Part shown: positions 50,701 through 57,886 of the stretch, piece by piece | How positions within the stretch are numbered: the stretch's first letter is position 1 | Layout of the letters: every line of letters begins with the position of its first letter | From: Halichondria panicea | Lineage: Eukaryota; Porifera; Demospongiae; Suberitida; Halichondriidae | Reading direction: 5' to 3' | DNA length: 64,000 nucleotides | Assembly (NCBI RefSeq): GCF_963675165.1 | Contig: NC_087391.1 | Location: 2,003,001-2,067,000 of the forward strand | Position numbers and translations under genes: made by a program | The notes under the pieces: generated by a model | What the model was told of the DNA's origin: nothing | The model's input: the letters and a program-made list of their open reading frames with translations, nothing else | Databases searched by the model: none

Positions 50701-50830
50701 AATGTATATTACGTATGTGGAGCAAAGATACAAAGATAGGTTAGCTCCAAGGGTTTTTGTCTTACCTAGGGAGAGTTATGGAGGGTGCTTCAACTTTAAT
50801 CTTGTCCAATTCGCTGATCAAAGACTCCAT
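44798..50830 (-). CDS. DRC7: Dynein regulatory complex subunit 7 (CCDC135)
   Basis: Fifteen exons give 819 residues: 50830-50766, 50671-50521, 50427-50302, 50003-49812, 49639-49259, 49052-48930, 48586-48514, 48437-48309, 48013-47885, 47712-47649, 47565-47178, 46871-46761, 46246-46010, 45474-45266, 44879-44798. DRC7 is part of the nexin-dynein regulatory complex that links axonemal doublets and controls ciliary beating. The transglutaminase-like region has KNQQGNCFEYANLMTSLLIG and YDAYCVCGYATQDI. Then come IKPP-like (VKPPRDLNSQFE) and ETLWNHKNYWVNMQDCSQG, the RCPRGSKQVLYYRAKLEKFA block, SARVDCLFKRE-type and ERPDFLHYRHTTYH sequence, and coiled coils. The C-terminus MFRIHILEQRLNRHK with LRNDPRLQL matches the human end. 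The catalytic cysteine position of the fold (QGNC) is retained. Motile flagella of sponge choanocytes and larvae are the expected place of action. Confidence 0.96.
45600..45827 (-). mobile_element. Foldback MITE, family 1, copy 2 (reverse orientation)
   Basis: Same ends and interior as 6976-7213 but inverted: GCGTGGCTTCCGGTAAGCAG of copy 1 appears here as CTGCTTACCGGAAGCCACGC. It lies in the DRC7 intron between 45474 and 46010. Confidence 0.9.
46416..46624. repeat. Palindromic element in a DRC7 intron
   Basis: ACTTGTACATGCATGTAG then ATTTCCCCTTAATAC at the left mirrors GTATTAAGGGGAAAT then CTACATGCATGTACATG at the right. Inner blocks AAACCACATTTTGTCC and GGACACAATGTGGTTT are also paired. It is likely a MITE of about 209 bases. 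Confidence 0.8.
46975..47130. mobile_element. Short foldback MITE related to family 2
   Basis: ACTGTAAAGCGGGTAAATTT at the left and AAATTTACCCGCTATACAGT at the right form the ends. The interior is unlike the longer copies (GGCGAATGAGGCG, TTGGCGATTTTTAATTTG). It lies in the intron between DRC7 exons 46871 and 47178. Confidence 0.8.
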
Positions 50831-51018
50831 TTCTTTCAGATGAACACTATTTAGAAGAAATCCACACACATGCTTCTGTTGCCTAGAAACCAAGGAGCTG
50901 GTTGAGCCCCACCCCCCAAAAACTGTTGAGCTTGCGCAGTACACATGTGACCCACAGCTTGCTTGTACACTTACAAGGTAAACAACTCCACAACTCTTGT
51001 GCAGAGAGATATCTTGCA
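50831..51018. promoter_or_regulatory. Divergent promoter region DRC7 / iRhom-like, with X-box-like site
   Basis: There are 188 bases between start codons. GTTGCCTAGAAAC at 50878-50890 fits the RFX X-box pattern GTNRCC-N(0-3)-RGYAAC at 11 of 12 positions, with a one-base spacer, 48 bases before the DRC7 ATG. RFX factors control ciliary genes in many animals, so it fits DRC7. No TATA box is seen. Confidence 0.6.
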
Positions 51019-53213
51019 ATGGCCACTGATTTAAGGGAAAGTCAAGAGTCTGTTCCTCCTTCTGCTCCCCCTATGCAATGGAGAGGACGACCAGCTAGTT
51101 ATAATGAAGAGCCACCAAGGTATCAATCTCTCTCTGTGGACGACTCAGATCATCACAGGGGTCCTGAGGCACCTACACCAAGAGATAGGAGAAACACTCT
51201 CAACAGGTCGCTAGCATTTGCAGGTAATGTGATAACTGAACTGTTTTCTTGGCAACAAATGTTTCATGTTACCTTTGTACTCACTAGGAGCTTCAATTGG
51301 ACATTTTTTCGGTGTTCACGATGACCCCACCACCAGAGGCCATAGACGCACAGGTACTTTCAGACAAGTTAACTACTCACCTGTACCCTATGTGGAAGGA
51401 GGAACACAAGATCCACCGCCACCGCCACCACCACAAAGACAGCAGTCACTTATTACTTCAACACTGAATAGAATGCGAAGAATAAGGGAGCCAACTAGAG
51501 ATGAGGTAATGGGCAGCCTACCAAAGTTTTGGCCTGTAACAACCATCCTTATCGCATTGCTTGAGATTGGGCTGCTAATTGCGGTAATAGTATTGTTTGG
51601 CCTTGCACCGATTGCTTTTGTGCCAACTACTGTCAGTGACACCATTGTGGGTTTTAACAATCTGTCCGAATATCAGACAAGGGAAATTGTGCCAAACTTC
51701 TTTATTGGACCATCAAGCTCTTCTCTTGTTCACTCTGGAGCAATGTACACACCAGTAAGTTTTTTAATCTTTGTTAGGAATGTGTGCATGATCTGGCAAT
51801 TTTTGAATTCTCTTTCAATGATATCCTTTGAATCACAGTGTATTAGGGACAATAGAGATTTTCAGCTGCTGGTAGCTAGGACAAGCTATGAAGAGAGTAA
51901 GTTGAGATGCTGTAAATCTGGTAGTCTCGAGCAGTGTGGCATGCTACCACAGGACATGTGAGTAATAAAATACTACATGTAGCTATAATTATACTGCATG
52001 GTTGTGCACATTGTTGCTTTTATGGAATACTTTGTAGTTTCAGAAATTGTATCATTGTGTGTGACACAATACTAGTGTGTGAAATTGCACAATCTACCCG
52101 GCAGTTGCATAGGCAAATACAGTGGCAGTGTGTTGGGTGGAGCTAGTCGATGTCGAGCAGAACTGAACAGTACAAGTGACTGCAATGGAGGGGTGGTTCT
52201 TCATCCATGCTGTGTGGGTATTCTTGGAGAGTGTTCTATCACGACAGAAGCAAACTGCACCTTTCAAGAAGGCTATTGGCACAAAGACAAACTTCTATGC
52301 AGCGAAGTGGACTGCTTTGCTGATACGTGTAGATTTGACTGGATTAATCGTACCATCAATGAAATCCCTGATCAAGGACTGAGGTTCGTCTCAGCCATCT
52401 TTCTCAATCATGGTGTTGTGACCTTGGTGATTGTGGGGTTTATCAAATTATACAACAGTTGGATGATTGAACGAAGAATTGGGTAAGAAAATTAGTGCAT
52501 GCATGTGATTTAATAACAATTATGGTCACCCTCACAGGTTTTTGAGGTTCATTTGCATCTATTTTACATCGGGTGTTGGAGGATTTTTGCTGAGTGGAAT
52601 ATTTGACCCCACAAGTGTTTCTGTAAGCCGGTTGACATTTTTAACACGAACAAAATAAACTATTGGATTTGAATTCAGGTTGGAGGATCTGGTCCCCTCT
52701 TTGGTCTTATTGGAGTGTTACTTGTTGAGCTCCTCCAGAGTTGGAAGTGGGTGAAAAAGCCGTGCGTTGAGTTGATTAAAATGTTGGTGCTCATCGTCTT
52801 ACTCTTGGGTAAGTTGTGAAACAGTATAGCTATTAGAATGCACACCCCTGTAACTTTCATCATAATTATGTGAATTGAGTCACGAACCAGTCTTCAATTT
52901 TGCAGCTATTGGGACTCTCCCCTACGTGGACAACTTCTCCCAAATTGGAGGGTTCATTTTTGGAGTACTGGCCTCGTTTATTTTTGTGCCGTACATCACT
53001 TTGGGCAAGTGGGACAGAGCCATCAAGTTATGCCTCATACTGACTTCTCTTCCGATTGTTATAACATTGTTTCTATTTGGTTTTGTGATATTCTATTTTA
53101 ACACTGAACTAAACTTTTGTCCAGCATGTAGCTACATCAATTGTATTCCATACACCCCAACTTTTTGCAGTGAGTTCATTAGTAATATATTGTCTTTTAT
53201 TCCCATACAATAA
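51019..53213 (+). CDS. RHBDF: iRhom-like rhomboid pseudoprotease with unusual active site
   Basis: Seven exons give 563 residues: 51019-51223, 51288-51754, 51839-51957, 52105-52482, 52538-52622, 52679-52808, 52906-53213. iRhoms are ER/Golgi membrane proteins that escort clients such as ADAM17 or send EGF ligands to degradation. The N-terminus is a long cytoplasmic tail with SH3-ligand-like PPPPPPPQR, then TM1 (ILIALLEIGLLIAVIVLFGL). The iRhom homology domain follows, with FIGPSSSSLVHSGAMYTPCI and a Cys-rich luminal loop. The membrane core contains FLNHGVVTL, ERRIG, VGGSGPLFGLIG, LPYVDNFSQIGGFIFG and CIPYTPTFCSE. The GxSG serine (codon 52688-52690) is present, but the TM6 catalytic His is Gln (52941-52943). 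Canonical iRhoms instead have GPAG and keep that His. No proteolysis is expected. Confidence 0.88.
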
Positions 53214-53366: not shown

Positions 53367-56300
53367 CTACTTATTTTTCTTAAAGACACTGCCCCTCTTT
53401 TTGTTTCCCAATCGCTTTGAGTTCATTGGTCCGGCTCCGGTCGAGCTTTTCTTGACTTCTCGTTGCTTGCTGGAAATAGTATGGCTACGAGATAAGTGTA
53501 TGCCAACTGGTGGAGAATCAACGTCTTCATGAATTTGGTCCAACGACGTACCACGTGGTAAAGTTCTGGATACGCTTGGTATCCCAGGAACCACATCAAC
53601 GAGTGATCGGTGCTGGCGGCCGAATGGATTTACACTTTGAGTGGGGTTACCAGTAGATGTAACAACAAAGCCTAAAGGAAGCGATCCACTAGTTCGACTA
53701 TTCGACAAAATCTTTGGTGGACTGTCATTTTCCTGGGAACGTAACTTTTGAGGTATGCTAGTGGATGGGATGGCAGTGTGTTCATAATCGGGTGTGTTGT
53801 GTGATGTGGTGGACTGTGAAGATCTCGAGTTGGGTGTCTTTGGTGTAGAAGGTAAAGATATTGAAGTGTTTACAGAGGGGCTTTGTGAGCTGGTATTAGT
53901 GACACCGATGCTAGAAGGGGAAGAATTGTTCGTGTCGTGACGTGAGGAGCTTGGGGTTCTCGGAGAGCTTGATGTTGAAGTACCCTGAGAATTGCCACTT
54001 TCTTTCAGAAAAGAAGTGTTCAAGAAAATATCCGTACTAATTGGAGTTGTAAATGTAAAGTTCGTCTCTTGAATTTCTGGAGGGGTGCTAAATACCTTCG
54101 GGTTGAAAGTACTCACTCCAGATATATCTCCAATGTTGTCCTTCATATGTCCGGGCTTTTGTTTGGGTGTGTCTTCCTTTTCCAATTTTTGTTGTTCTTC
54201 ATATTTCTCTGGCTTGTTTACTTTTGGTGGCTTAACAACTTTCACAGATGACTGACCAAATGTGGAACTACAGATATCTTCCTTCATTTCACTATCTTCT
54301 GGGTGCCATTCGTGTTTTGTAATTGTCTTGAAGATAGATTCGAGTTCACCACCTCCTCCACTGGCGTCTAATTGAACTGGAGTTATACCTAGAGTTGGAA
54401 CACCAATCACTTTCTTAGTACGATGAGGAGGACTAGGGTTTACAGGTGCTTCCTCTTGCTCTTGTCGTTGCTGCTTTTGTTTCTCAGCATCATCTAATGT
54501 GATGGGCTCATCAGCCTTAAAGCTTGGCTTGCGTTTAACCCCTGACTTCTCTTTGTCTGAGTCCTTTCCTTTCTTTCTGAAGAAGCTTTGTCGCTTTTTG
54601 GACTTTTGTGGTTGAGATCTTTCTGTTTCAACTTGCAACAGTTGCTGCTGTCGATCTTCTTCCTTCTTGGCCAGTCCAGGATGGGTTGACAACGGGGGTG
54701 GGGGAGGCTGCAACTGCAGGGACTGGGGAATTACAAGTCGTTTGGGAGCTTCAGTTGGTGACGTAGCCTTCTGTTGAATCTTGTCAGAATCTTCTTCGCT
54801 GTTTTGTTGAAAGTTCAGAGGAATGGAGAGTTTCTTTGGAGCAGGGAGTGGTGACACCTTCATGCTAGATTTAACAACTGATGATTCGGGATTCGGTTCC
54901 TCTTCTTTTGTTTCCACTAAATGAGCCTTGAAAAGATCTGTAACAGTCGATGTACGCTTTGGAACTGGTGGAGGGACCCTCTTTTTCGTTTCTTCTTTCT
55001 CAACTTCTCCCCTGAGTCTTTCTTTCAAGGCTTTTTTCTTGTCTTCGATAGAGGGAAGATTCTTCAGTTCATTTTGTTGCTCAACCTTCAAATCCTTAGG
55101 GGGTTTCAAAGGTTGCGTGTGAGAATTTATGTTGGGAGTAGTACTTTCTTTCTGCTTAGGTGAATTATTGAAAGAACCGTCCACATTTTCAGATTGAGAT
55201 TGGTTTGATTGTTTCAATTCTAGATCTTCTTTAGCATTAACTGAAACTTGTTCCAAATTCTTGACTGGAAGAACCATTGTCTCTCCATCTTTGAGGATAG
55301 AAGTCTCCTTTGCCTGAGTCGAACACACATGATCAGTTGGTTGATGGTCTATGCCCTCAGTGATTTCTGTGACAAAAAGCTGAGGCTCTTCTTCCGAAGG
55401 TGAATTTTCTTCTGTTGGTTTGGTTGAAGAGTTTTGTTCCTGCCATGCAGTTAGGACAGTTTGAGGGTTTGAATCAACGACTAAAGTTGATAATTCTGCT
55501 CCAGTGGTGACACCTTCTGTTTGATTGCTACCTGAAGACTCAGTTGTAGCAGTGTGAGTTGGAGCGCTTTGCTCATGCGATTCTGTATTCTTCTTATCTT
55601 GAAAATTGGAATCCGCAACTTGTAGGAGAGCATTTGGAGTTTCAGGTACGACAGGATCTTCTGGTTCTGTTTTTACTGCTTTAGGTAGCTGTGGCGAGTG
55701 ATGAGCAGGAGCATATTTAATCTTTGGTCCTACTGCTTTGGGGGCAACTGCTTCTGGTACCACTGGCTCTTCCTGGAGACAGAGATATTTCACGTAAATG
55801 ACACACCAATATTCGTACAGCTGCATGGCCATGCTTTGCATGTGGTTCACAACATTTTGCACCATACATATATAACACATGCATGCATGAAAATGTTTGC
55901 GAGCAAACCAAGTTGCTTGGAATTCGAAGATTGTATGAATGGTTGAATTTGCACTAAACATCTATAATTTTTATGTGTGTGCATATTATACTCACAGGTG
56001 TGTTAAGGAATACTTTGCCAATTCTGTTCTCAGTGTAAAATTCAATGGCAATTGGTAAAGTGGCGAATGTGTATCCATTGAGGACACACTCATTGTTGGG
56101 TGCCACAACAACCTGATAGTGATCAATATCCTCGCTACCTCTGTGAATAAAAAACAGTCAACAAATTTAGAAACCAGTCATGCAAGCTAATGAATACTGC
56201 ATAATTGTACAATTAAGGTATTAATTTTATTGCCACATGCTATGAATAGTATAATAATTTCCTGTAAACACCTGCTTTATTAGCACTTTTACTAATTAAA

Positions 56301-57886
56301 AATAAGTTTGCACAAATTGTCAACATTCAATGACAAGCACATCTCTCTATGTACCGTATGATCGAGTGCAATTCAAGCTTATATATGTATATTATAACTT
56401 GGCCGTGGACCCCTGCCAGAATGTTGGCAGTGCCAATCAGTTTTGTCCACGTCATAGTGGGTGGTAACACCCCATATATTTTCCTATTATAGCATAAAAT
56501 GAACGTGAAAAGAAGGATTTTTGACTCTAGCAAAGGCTAATTTTAGTGTTGAACCATACCTGGCTGCGAATGAACTCGGTTACAAGGAGCTCAGACCAAG
56601 CAAGAGCTAGCTAGCTGCGAATGAAAATATTTGCTACATGTGAATTTGGTTAATCTTGCACGTGGCTACATTCTTCAGTGCCATGGAATTGCTGCAATAG
56701 TGACCAGACGTTCCCTCTAGGACAAGTCTGCTCGCGAGACTATCTATTGCGTTGGTCAAGAACTGAAGGCTTGCACACTAGTCTGAAGCCAGAAGAGGCT
56801 CTCATCTACCTCTAAGATGCCATGGTCGTATGGCCGAGTAGCAATTGGAAGTACCATAGCAAGCACAAAGACTTCATCCAATCATCCTGACCATAATTAT
56901 GACCATCATGGAGGTAGATGAGCTAGGGTCTCTTCTGGCTTCAGACTAGCCTTCTTGACCAAGGTAATAGAAGGCAAGAGATAGAAAAGAGAATGAGATT
57001 CCTCAGATTTTGTAGCATGAGTAAGCAAGCGCATGGCATGCACACTATCTATCACCCATGCAATTGACACCAGGCAGTATTTTTCGAGAAAAATCGGCCT
57101 GGGAATGAGGCTATATATAGAGTACTATCACTATTCTGGCTCTCTGAAGTACGACCACCTCGATATATCGGTAATTTGGTTTGGCATGGATTACTAGCTA
57201 TTATTGCACAAAACTTTTTGTCCTGAAATCCGGCCACTTGCTATTCTGTATATATACTGGCCAGTACTGGCTGCTCCAAACTAAGTTTTCAATGTAATTT
57301 TAGACGTTTATTACGGTGTTTTGGGTGTGGTTTGGCAGATAAAATTGAATTTAGGTTCATTATCCTCGAGACAGAACCGCTAAATAAGTTATTAGAATCG
57401 AACCAAGCTGCACTGTCCAAGGGTGGCCGGATTAACAAGAACTACTGTACTTGTACAAAACTTTGATAACACCATTTGAATGGTCTCTTTCTAAGCTTTC
57501 CTAAACTGAATCGTTGATATGATTGCCCAAGTAGATCTAAGATCTTTTCTTACTCACTTTACTGATAGAATATAGTCTGCATCCGGCAATAGACTGTCAC
57601 GGATGAGAAAAGATCCTTTGTCTCCAAGTTTTGCCAGTACTTGCTCTGCTTTCCTCTCACTAATAGCACCAACATACCAGCTGCAGGTACAGATAGCCTC
57701 AGGTTATGCATGACATTGTACTAATTTAATAAACAGTTGCAACTATAATTATGATAGTACAAGTATAGTACAGCAAACAGGACAGAAGTTATAATTATTA
57801 TTATCTTGCAAATTGTTACTGATAGCTTACAATTCATCTTTAATCAGGCTGAGTCCTGGTTTCTTGTTTGGTGTAGAGGCTGCCAT
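53367..57886 (-). CDS. SH2-domain scaffold with long disordered tail
   Basis: Four exons (57886-57831, 57680-57558, 56140-55996, 55772-53367) give 909 residues. An N-terminal SH2 domain begins with DELFWYVGAISERKAEQVLA, has the phosphotyrosine-binding Arg in GSFLIRDS and continues over three exons to about residue 108. The last exon encodes about 800 residues of low-complexity, charged, Ser/Pro/Glu-rich sequence with SH3-type ligands (KKRVPPPVPKR) and basic clusters (KKRQSFFRKKGK, and KKRGSVFKKNK at the C-terminus). It probably links phosphotyrosine signals to SH3 proteins. No known family was recognised; an SH2 at the very N-terminus with such a tail is not a standard layout. It could be sponge-specific. 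It converges with the iRhom-like gene (153 bases apart) and diverges from the K2P gene. Confidence 0.82.
56751..56962. repeat. Palindromic element in the SH2-gene intron
   Basis: TTGGTCAAGAA then CTAGTCTGAAGCCAGAAGAG and ATCTACCTC in the left arm return as GAGGTAGAT, CTCTTCTGGCTTCAGACTAG and TTCTTGACCAA in the right. The remaining parts of this long intron (56141-57557) hold no coding sequence; an inverted, weaker likeness of CTGGCTGCTCC-type sequence was not resolved. Confidence 0.8.

Follow-up and report, generated by a model that had tools for sequence, protein, structure and literature searches.

An iRhom-derived gene with glutamine at the catalytic histidine position and no GPxG proline in the sponge Halichondria panicea

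iRhoms are a standard case of a protease family turned regulators. They have been described as GPxx-His proteins (PMC7065720), with a proline ahead of the serine position that Zettl 2011 (PMC3149277) calls invariant and sufficient to disrupt the site. The 64,000-nucleotide stretch of Halichondria panicea DNA analysed here (the window) contains an iRhom-like gene with the reverse arrangement, a GxSG serine in TM4 and a glutamine at the place of the TM6 histidine. We asked whether this gene encodes a protease, a damaged or misread iRhom, or a distinct kind of iRhom relative, and what its product might do.

The gene (the window gene, on C15) was modeled as follows.

51019..53213, plus strand: Gln-type iRhom-like gene from start codon ATG to stop, 563 aa in 7 exons, all six introns GT-AG
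51019..51223, plus strand: exon 1, short cytoplasmic N-terminus (exon model; presumed start codon)
51288..51754, plus strand: exon 2, remaining N-terminus, TM1 (51527-51610) and start of the iRhom homology domain (IRHD)
51839..51957, plus strand: exon 3, IRHD (exon model)
52105..52482, plus strand: exon 4, IRHD with the HPCC box (52202-52234), and TM2
52421..52423, plus strand: Thr370, replacing the TM2 histidine (GlpG H150, iRhom1 H668) in alignments
52538..52622, plus strand: exon 5, TM3 (exon model)
52679..52808, plus strand: exon 6, TM4 with VGGSGPLFG, and TM5
52688..52690, plus strand: Ser422 (TCT), catalytic serine position; the Gly before it is at the site of the iRhom Pro
52906..53213, plus strand: exon 7, TM6 with DNFSQIGG, TM7 and stop
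52941..52943, plus strand: Gln474 (CAA), catalytic histidine position; same codon in the C2 paralog

The 563 codons contain no internal stop, compared with 32 on average and never fewer than 19 in 500 base shuffles of the sequence, and we take this to be a predicted working gene. The only Pfam family found in its product (the window protein) was Rhomboid (2.7e-25, residues 354-489). A phmmer search of solved structures at E values up to 1 returned five distinct sequences: two of human iRhom2 (best, 6.1e-59), two of human iRhom1 (best, 8.2e-58) and an unrelated methyltransferase (0.043). The human proteins (RHBDF2 and RHBDF1; PDB 8snl, 9o58, 9q7y, and 9xy4) have the same order of TM1, cysteine-rich IRHD and rhomboid core, and the window protein shares with them the GxxG of TM4 and the DN...I.G of TM6. 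It has 148 residues before TM1, compared with about 370 in the 827-residue human iRhom2 chain. That the protein is an iRhom relative, as a preliminary description had proposed, is thus borne out by phmmer, and a tree of the rhomboid core (below) also groups it with the iRhoms. The iRhom homology box cited in that description, FIGPSSSSLVHSGAMYTPCI, is real (51701-51844, interrupted by an intron), but it does not belong to the cytoplasmic N-terminus; it follows TM1, at the start of the IRHD.

We examined the catalytic positions in two further alignments, one of five proteins (the window protein, the products of two paralogs described below, C2 and C17, and human iRhom1 and iRhom2) and a shorter core alignment that adds three outgroups (GlpG, L001, and L002). 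L001 and L002 are encoded in the sponge genome itself. L001 we take to be an RHBDL4-like rhomboid-domain protein. L002 (G000:C8:330804-331229), a rhomboid-domain sequence that also matches DUF1751 (6.9e-6), has GYSG with a Ser and an Asn at the catalytic His position (IANLAG). In the core alignment, the catalytic Ser of GlpG fell over Ser422 and its catalytic His over Gln474, in agreement with the residues first described and with their codons, TCT and CAA. phmmer paired VGPAGSQFG of iRhom2 with VGGSGPLFG (residues 419-427, 52679-52705) and IDNIAHIFG with VDNFSQIGG without gaps, and IDN(I/F)AHI of human iRhom1/2 likewise aligned without gaps to the TM6 motif (DNFSQIGG, residues 470-477, 52929-52952). 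A register in which the SGP of VGGSGPLFG would be an iRhom GP was dropped, the FG anchoring the gapless alignment.

A further change at the active site had been omitted from the earlier account. In TM2, Thr370 stands where GlpG has its TM2 histidine, H150. A TM2 His...Asn is a feature of active rhomboid proteases, and the window protein has Val at the position of GlpG N154. GlpG, which has no IRHD, shares the Ser of the GxSG position with the window protein but has the TM6 His, the TM2 His and the Asn. The corresponding histidine of human iRhom1, H668, lies near a sterol pocket according to PMC13142363. Three catalytic-site positions thus argue for inactivity, and Ser422 alone looks protease-like, so far as residues can tell. 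For the window protein to be an active protease, Ser422 would have to work with another base; the GxSG form speaks for this, but with the dyad His replaced by Gln, the TM2 His by Thr and the Asn by Val, and with a Pro two residues past Ser422, we consider it extremely improbable. The protein is very probably inactive and iRhom derived.

Does the unusual pair of codons reflect an error in the sequence? We searched the genome (131 Mb, 39 contigs) for relatives. The Pfam Rhomboid model gave nine exon-wise matches at E values up to 5, spread over seven loci; eight exceeded the cut-off. We also searched with a degenerate DNA motif for DNF[AS][HQ]IG, a pattern blind to other spellings such as the DNIAH of human iRhom2; it matched three times, compared with no match for a reversed-pattern control. 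The three genes were the window gene, a gene that we call C2 (L009) and a gene that we call C17 (L008). C2 (541 aa, six exons) has GVGG in TM4 and DNFAQIG in TM6 and retains the TM2 His. C17 (770 aa, ten exons) has GPAG and DNFAHIG and also retains the TM2 His. At three of its exons, two of them cytoplasmic and one luminal, the acceptor could be placed in two ways one codon apart, giving eight open variants, and this affected no residue compared here. Against human iRhom1, C17 scored 355 bits in one stretch across the whole luminal domain, whereas the window protein reached 200 bits, split over two stretches. Judged by its sequence, C17 is an ordinary (canonical) iRhom, and it agrees with human iRhom1/2 and with PMC7065720 on the statement that known animal iRhoms have Pro in TM4 and His in TM6.

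A single base separates Gln and His codons, and an assembly or base-calling error at the two window codons would be a simple explanation. However, C2, at an independent place, also has Gln, by the same codon CAA, and the proline is missing from both the window protein and C2 (the Gln pair). An error is therefore very unlikely, and we give it next to no weight. The existence of a sister gene, together with a normal copy in the same genome, argues for a genuine second type of iRhom, Gln-bearing and proline-less, rather than for a protease that survived.

We then compared the window protein with the definition of an iRhom, which in Zettl 2011 (PMC3149277) comprises a proline before the serine position, an IRHD and a long N-terminus. 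The Rhomboid-like core is present (2.7e-25), as is an IRHD between TM1 and TM2, both ends of which align to human iRhom1/2 around a shorter middle, and the catalytic His is missing, being Gln. The invariant proline (GPx) is replaced by Gly in the window protein and by Val in C2. The N-terminus is short relative to the roughly 300 residues that precede TM1 in C17. The Pfam family iRhom1-2_N matched nothing in the genome, nor the C17 protein, and hence had no discriminating power here. Of the features of an active rhomboid protease, the GxSG serine is present and the TM6 His and TM2 His...Asn are missing. By architecture and tree, the window protein belongs to the iRhom lineage; because it lacks the proline, we file it as a proline-less iRhom-derived variant and not as an iRhom in the strict sense.

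The window protein and C2 were 41% identical over their aligned part (167/410), compared with 32% for the window protein and C17 (133/418) and for C2 and C17 (131/410). Against the two human proteins, the identities were 32% and 31% for the window protein (121/382 and 128/407), 36% and 34% for C2 (133/374 and 134/399), and 45% and 43% for C17 (188/417 and 190/442). Among the sites occupied in all five proteins and identical between the two human ones, 17 parted the Gln pair from C17 and the human proteins, compared with 4 and 1 for the other two splits; 20 further sites were common to the Gln pair alone, and at 10 sites the three sponge proteins agreed against both human ones. In an unrooted maximum-likelihood tree of the five-protein alignment, the Gln-pair split had an ultrafast bootstrap of 100, and both alternatives were rejected (deltaL of 44.2 and 44.3; 2000 resamplings, few by the standard of the program). 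Support for the pair was only 74 in the shorter core alignment, where the outgroups joined beside C17 with a weak 47. With the few taxa included, the same core tree separated the five iRhom-type proteins from the three outgroups at a support of 100. We regard the window gene and C2 as sister paralogs, firmly so on the full alignment, and this kinship is a further reason why the Gln is hardly a sequencing error.

Some introns are shared. One, in phase 0 before GxxG, is common to the window gene (SVS|VGGSG) and C17 (YPE|AGPAG), and another, in phase 0 before VNC/VDC, is common to C2 and C17; most others differ among the three genes. The shared introns indicate that the copies are DNA duplicates.

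When did the two types part? We tested five rootings with five outgroup sets drawn from GlpG, L001, and L002 (10000 resamplings). The AU test retained all five rootings in each set, so that loss of the proline and a proline not yet gained are both possible. In three sets (GlpG, L001 and L002 together; GlpG alone; L002 alone), the best root placed the Gln pair with the human proteins. With L001 alone it placed C2 first, and with GlpG plus L001 it made the Gln pair sister to the canonical iRhoms. Placing the Gln pair with C17, as expected of a sponge-only duplication, ranked last by AU in four sets, with values of 0.059, 0.086, 0.082, and 0.168, and was joint second lowest in the fifth (0.222). 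Its RELL values ranged from 0.02 to 0.10 over the five sets, excluding it in three, and it passed AU, KH, SH, and ELW in all five. No secretase-type RHBDL1-3 outgroup was found among the nine Pfam Rhomboid candidates scored in the genome, which does not imply that such genes are absent; the single match to a GASGGVY-like pattern in the genome was not a rhomboid.

The preliminary description had offered two origins for the serine: a pseudoprotease in which Ser survived while His was lost, or an early state before the proline was fixed. The residues do describe a pseudoprotease, but survival of the Ser, though conceivable, is not supported. At the catalytic serine position, the window protein has S, C2 has G, and C17 and both human iRhoms have A, between flanking glycines that are fixed in all five proteins; judged from these five, the position seems to take small residues only. 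One base turns the Ala codon GCT of C17 into the Ser codon TCT of the window gene, and the GxSG form can be a chance re-creation. With Gly in the sister protein, Ala in the three canonical ones and a one-base path from Ala to Ser, we do not accept the surviving Ser as evidence of ancestry.

Two histories can be weighed on these data. The window gene and C2 may descend from a copy of the canonical iRhom that arose by duplication in the sponge lineage and diverged rapidly, losing the proline, the histidine, the long N-terminus and the iCERES export motif, with GGSG re-created by chance. The 10 sites that unite the three sponge proteins fit this account, as do the introns shared with C17, though these may be older than the duplication, and the core branch of the window protein is longer (0.78) than those of C2 (0.41) and C17 (0.35). 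On the five-protein alignment, however, the branches of the three sponge proteins have similar lengths (0.88, 0.78, and 0.81), so that the fast divergence is seen in the core only. RELL excludes this history in three sets; AU, KH, SH, and ELW do not reject it. We give it less than even chances, somewhat over one in three by our own estimate. Alternatively, the Gln paralogs could have branched off first, with the proline, the long N-terminus and iCERES acquired later in the canonical line and Ser422 ancestral. Neither Gln paralog has the canonical features that are foreign to active rhomboids, which a single gain of each would explain; the pair is no closer to C17 than to human iRhoms (31-36% identity), and the sponge-only duplication fares worst by AU in four of five sets. 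Yet the rooting that this branching order calls for was best in a single set, the preference of three sets for the Gln pair with human is a sign of lacking resolution, the sister C2 has Gly and not Ser, and the IRHD is already in place in the pair. The TM6 His is ancestral and its replacement by Gln hence derived regardless. We find this early branching doubtful, and equally or slightly more so the corollary that a second ancient iRhom class, with TM6 Gln and no GPxG proline, pre-dated the separation of sponges and humans and was lost from the human line. If such a class did exist, the proline would mark one of two iRhom classes and would not be the cause of the family's inactivity.

We mapped the positions tested in the cited papers onto the five-protein alignment. 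The iCERES segment (W567/W574) is missing in both Gln proteins, and C17 retains W574 only; according to PMC8233286, mammalian mutants of iCERES are dominant-negative, still binding immature ADAM17 but failing to exit the ER. D475, a prodomain contact that restrains ADAM17 (PMC11248996), is Ser in the window protein, Gly in C2 and Asp in C17. According to PMC12184519, ADAM17 activity requires the re-entry loop, but ADAM17 binding does not. This loop, which reads RxYG in the human proteins and C17, was unrecognizable by eye in either Gln protein; an LNR of the window protein aligns with its last Arg. The same paper describes eight disulfides in the IRHD, matching its 16 cysteines. All 16 are present in human iRhoms and C17, compared with 12 in the window protein and 11 in C2, and four are missing from both Gln paralogs. 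Extra cysteines occur elsewhere in the IRHD, one in C2 and two in the window protein, so the four lost cysteines need not equal two lost disulfides. I386 in TM1 is Leu in the window protein, Ala in C2, Ile in C17 and Val even in human iRhom1, and because of this variation it neither supports nor excludes ADAM17 binding. None of the sponge proteins has D683, and E734 is found in the Gln pair but not in C17. Since the canonical C17 itself lacks W567, D683, and E734, the losses are not cleanly separated by type. Two glycines, iRhom2 G431 (NFWVG box, the Trp of which is Phe in the window protein) and G637 (TM2), are retained in all five proteins; the corresponding iRhom1 G462 and G665 are sites of disease-associated mutations (PMC13142363).

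Taken side by side, the window protein differs from human iRhom1/2 in lacking the GPxG proline, iCERES, D475 and a recognizable re-entry loop and in having Gln for the TM6 His and Thr for the TM2 His. C17, with the same architecture, retains GPAG, AHIGG, the TM2 His, D475, one iCERES Trp and all 16 cysteines. C2 resembles the window protein in its TM6 Gln, missing proline, short N-terminus, absent iCERES and D475, and 41% identity, and differs in having GVGG, not GGSG, and in keeping the TM2 His.

These comparisons suggest a function, by way of mammalian mutants mapped onto proteins with 31-36% identity to human. On this reading, the window gene is open and encodes a seven-TM protein of iRhom descent that is catalytically dead, and no proteolysis is expected of it. 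Its TM1 and cysteine-rich luminal domain may still bind membrane clients in the early secretory pathway, and the parts by which mammalian iRhoms export, restrain and activate ADAM17 appear to be missing. Given those missing parts, clients would most likely be retained or turned over, and not escorted to the surface as ADAM17 is. Drosophila iRhom routes EGF-type clients to ER-associated degradation (Zettl 2011, PMC3149277), and the window protein might act likewise, possibly opposing the canonical iRhom. As a whole, a dead client-binding adaptor without ADAM17 escort machinery is the reading that we consider probable; for the retention function taken alone, we would put the chances at somewhat below even.

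The genome contains one canonical iRhom and two separate genes with the membrane-proximal domain of ADAM17 (ADAM17_MPD), L010 (G000:C2:6039880) and L011 (G000:C2:8328437), both over the Pfam cut-off, and the products of these two genes are possible clients of the window protein. The presence of two such genes and two iRhom types in one genome also raises the alternative that each ADAM17-like protease has its own iRhom type and that the window protein is an ADAM17 escort after all. Retention of the IRHD and TM1 is consistent with this, but neither Gln paralog has the iCERES segment, D475 or a re-entry loop that can be recognized by eye. We consider such an escort role unlikely, and continue to favor an adaptor that binds clients without escorting ADAM17.

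Two open, proline-less genes with an iRhom luminal domain beside a canonical copy show that iRhom architecture does not require the proline. They also suggest that the iRhom types divide the labor in this animal, which has two ADAM17-like genes, and the sequence of steps by which activity was lost becomes testable with sponge and other early-animal sequences. Among the titles and abstract openings that our literature searches listed, none dealt with sponge iRhoms or with iRhoms lacking the proline. Outside animals, no relative of the window protein was confirmed in viral contigs (one pattern search had no match; another matched 27 stretches) or among 26 pattern matches in genome contigs, which has no bearing on its rarity among animals.

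A different enzyme family in the same genome also has substituted catalytic residues. In two papain-family pieces, L032 and L034, Ser replaces the catalytic Cys (CGASYAF and CGSSYAF); the best PDB-sequence match of L032 was silicatein alpha (6zq3, 8e-11), which shares this Ser, with cathepsins next at 8e-8. Silicatein is a hallmark of siliceous sponges, especially demosponges, and the match fits a sponge genome, most likely that of a demosponge. Seven papain-family genes lie in a run (L022, L023, and L025-L029; G000:C8:493345-521186), and one of them, L026, likewise has Ser for the catalytic Cys (CGSSWAF).

Within the window, a gene for DRC7 (dynein regulatory complex subunit 7) lies on the minus strand, head to head with the window gene. 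The presumed starts of the two genes are 188 bp apart (window positions 50830-51019), and they may share a promoter. On the other side, a large minus-strand reading frame at 53367-55961 (864 aa, stop to stop) had no Pfam match at 0.01. An SH2 domain is encoded upstream of this frame on the same strand (57554-57703), and the two may be parts of one gene.
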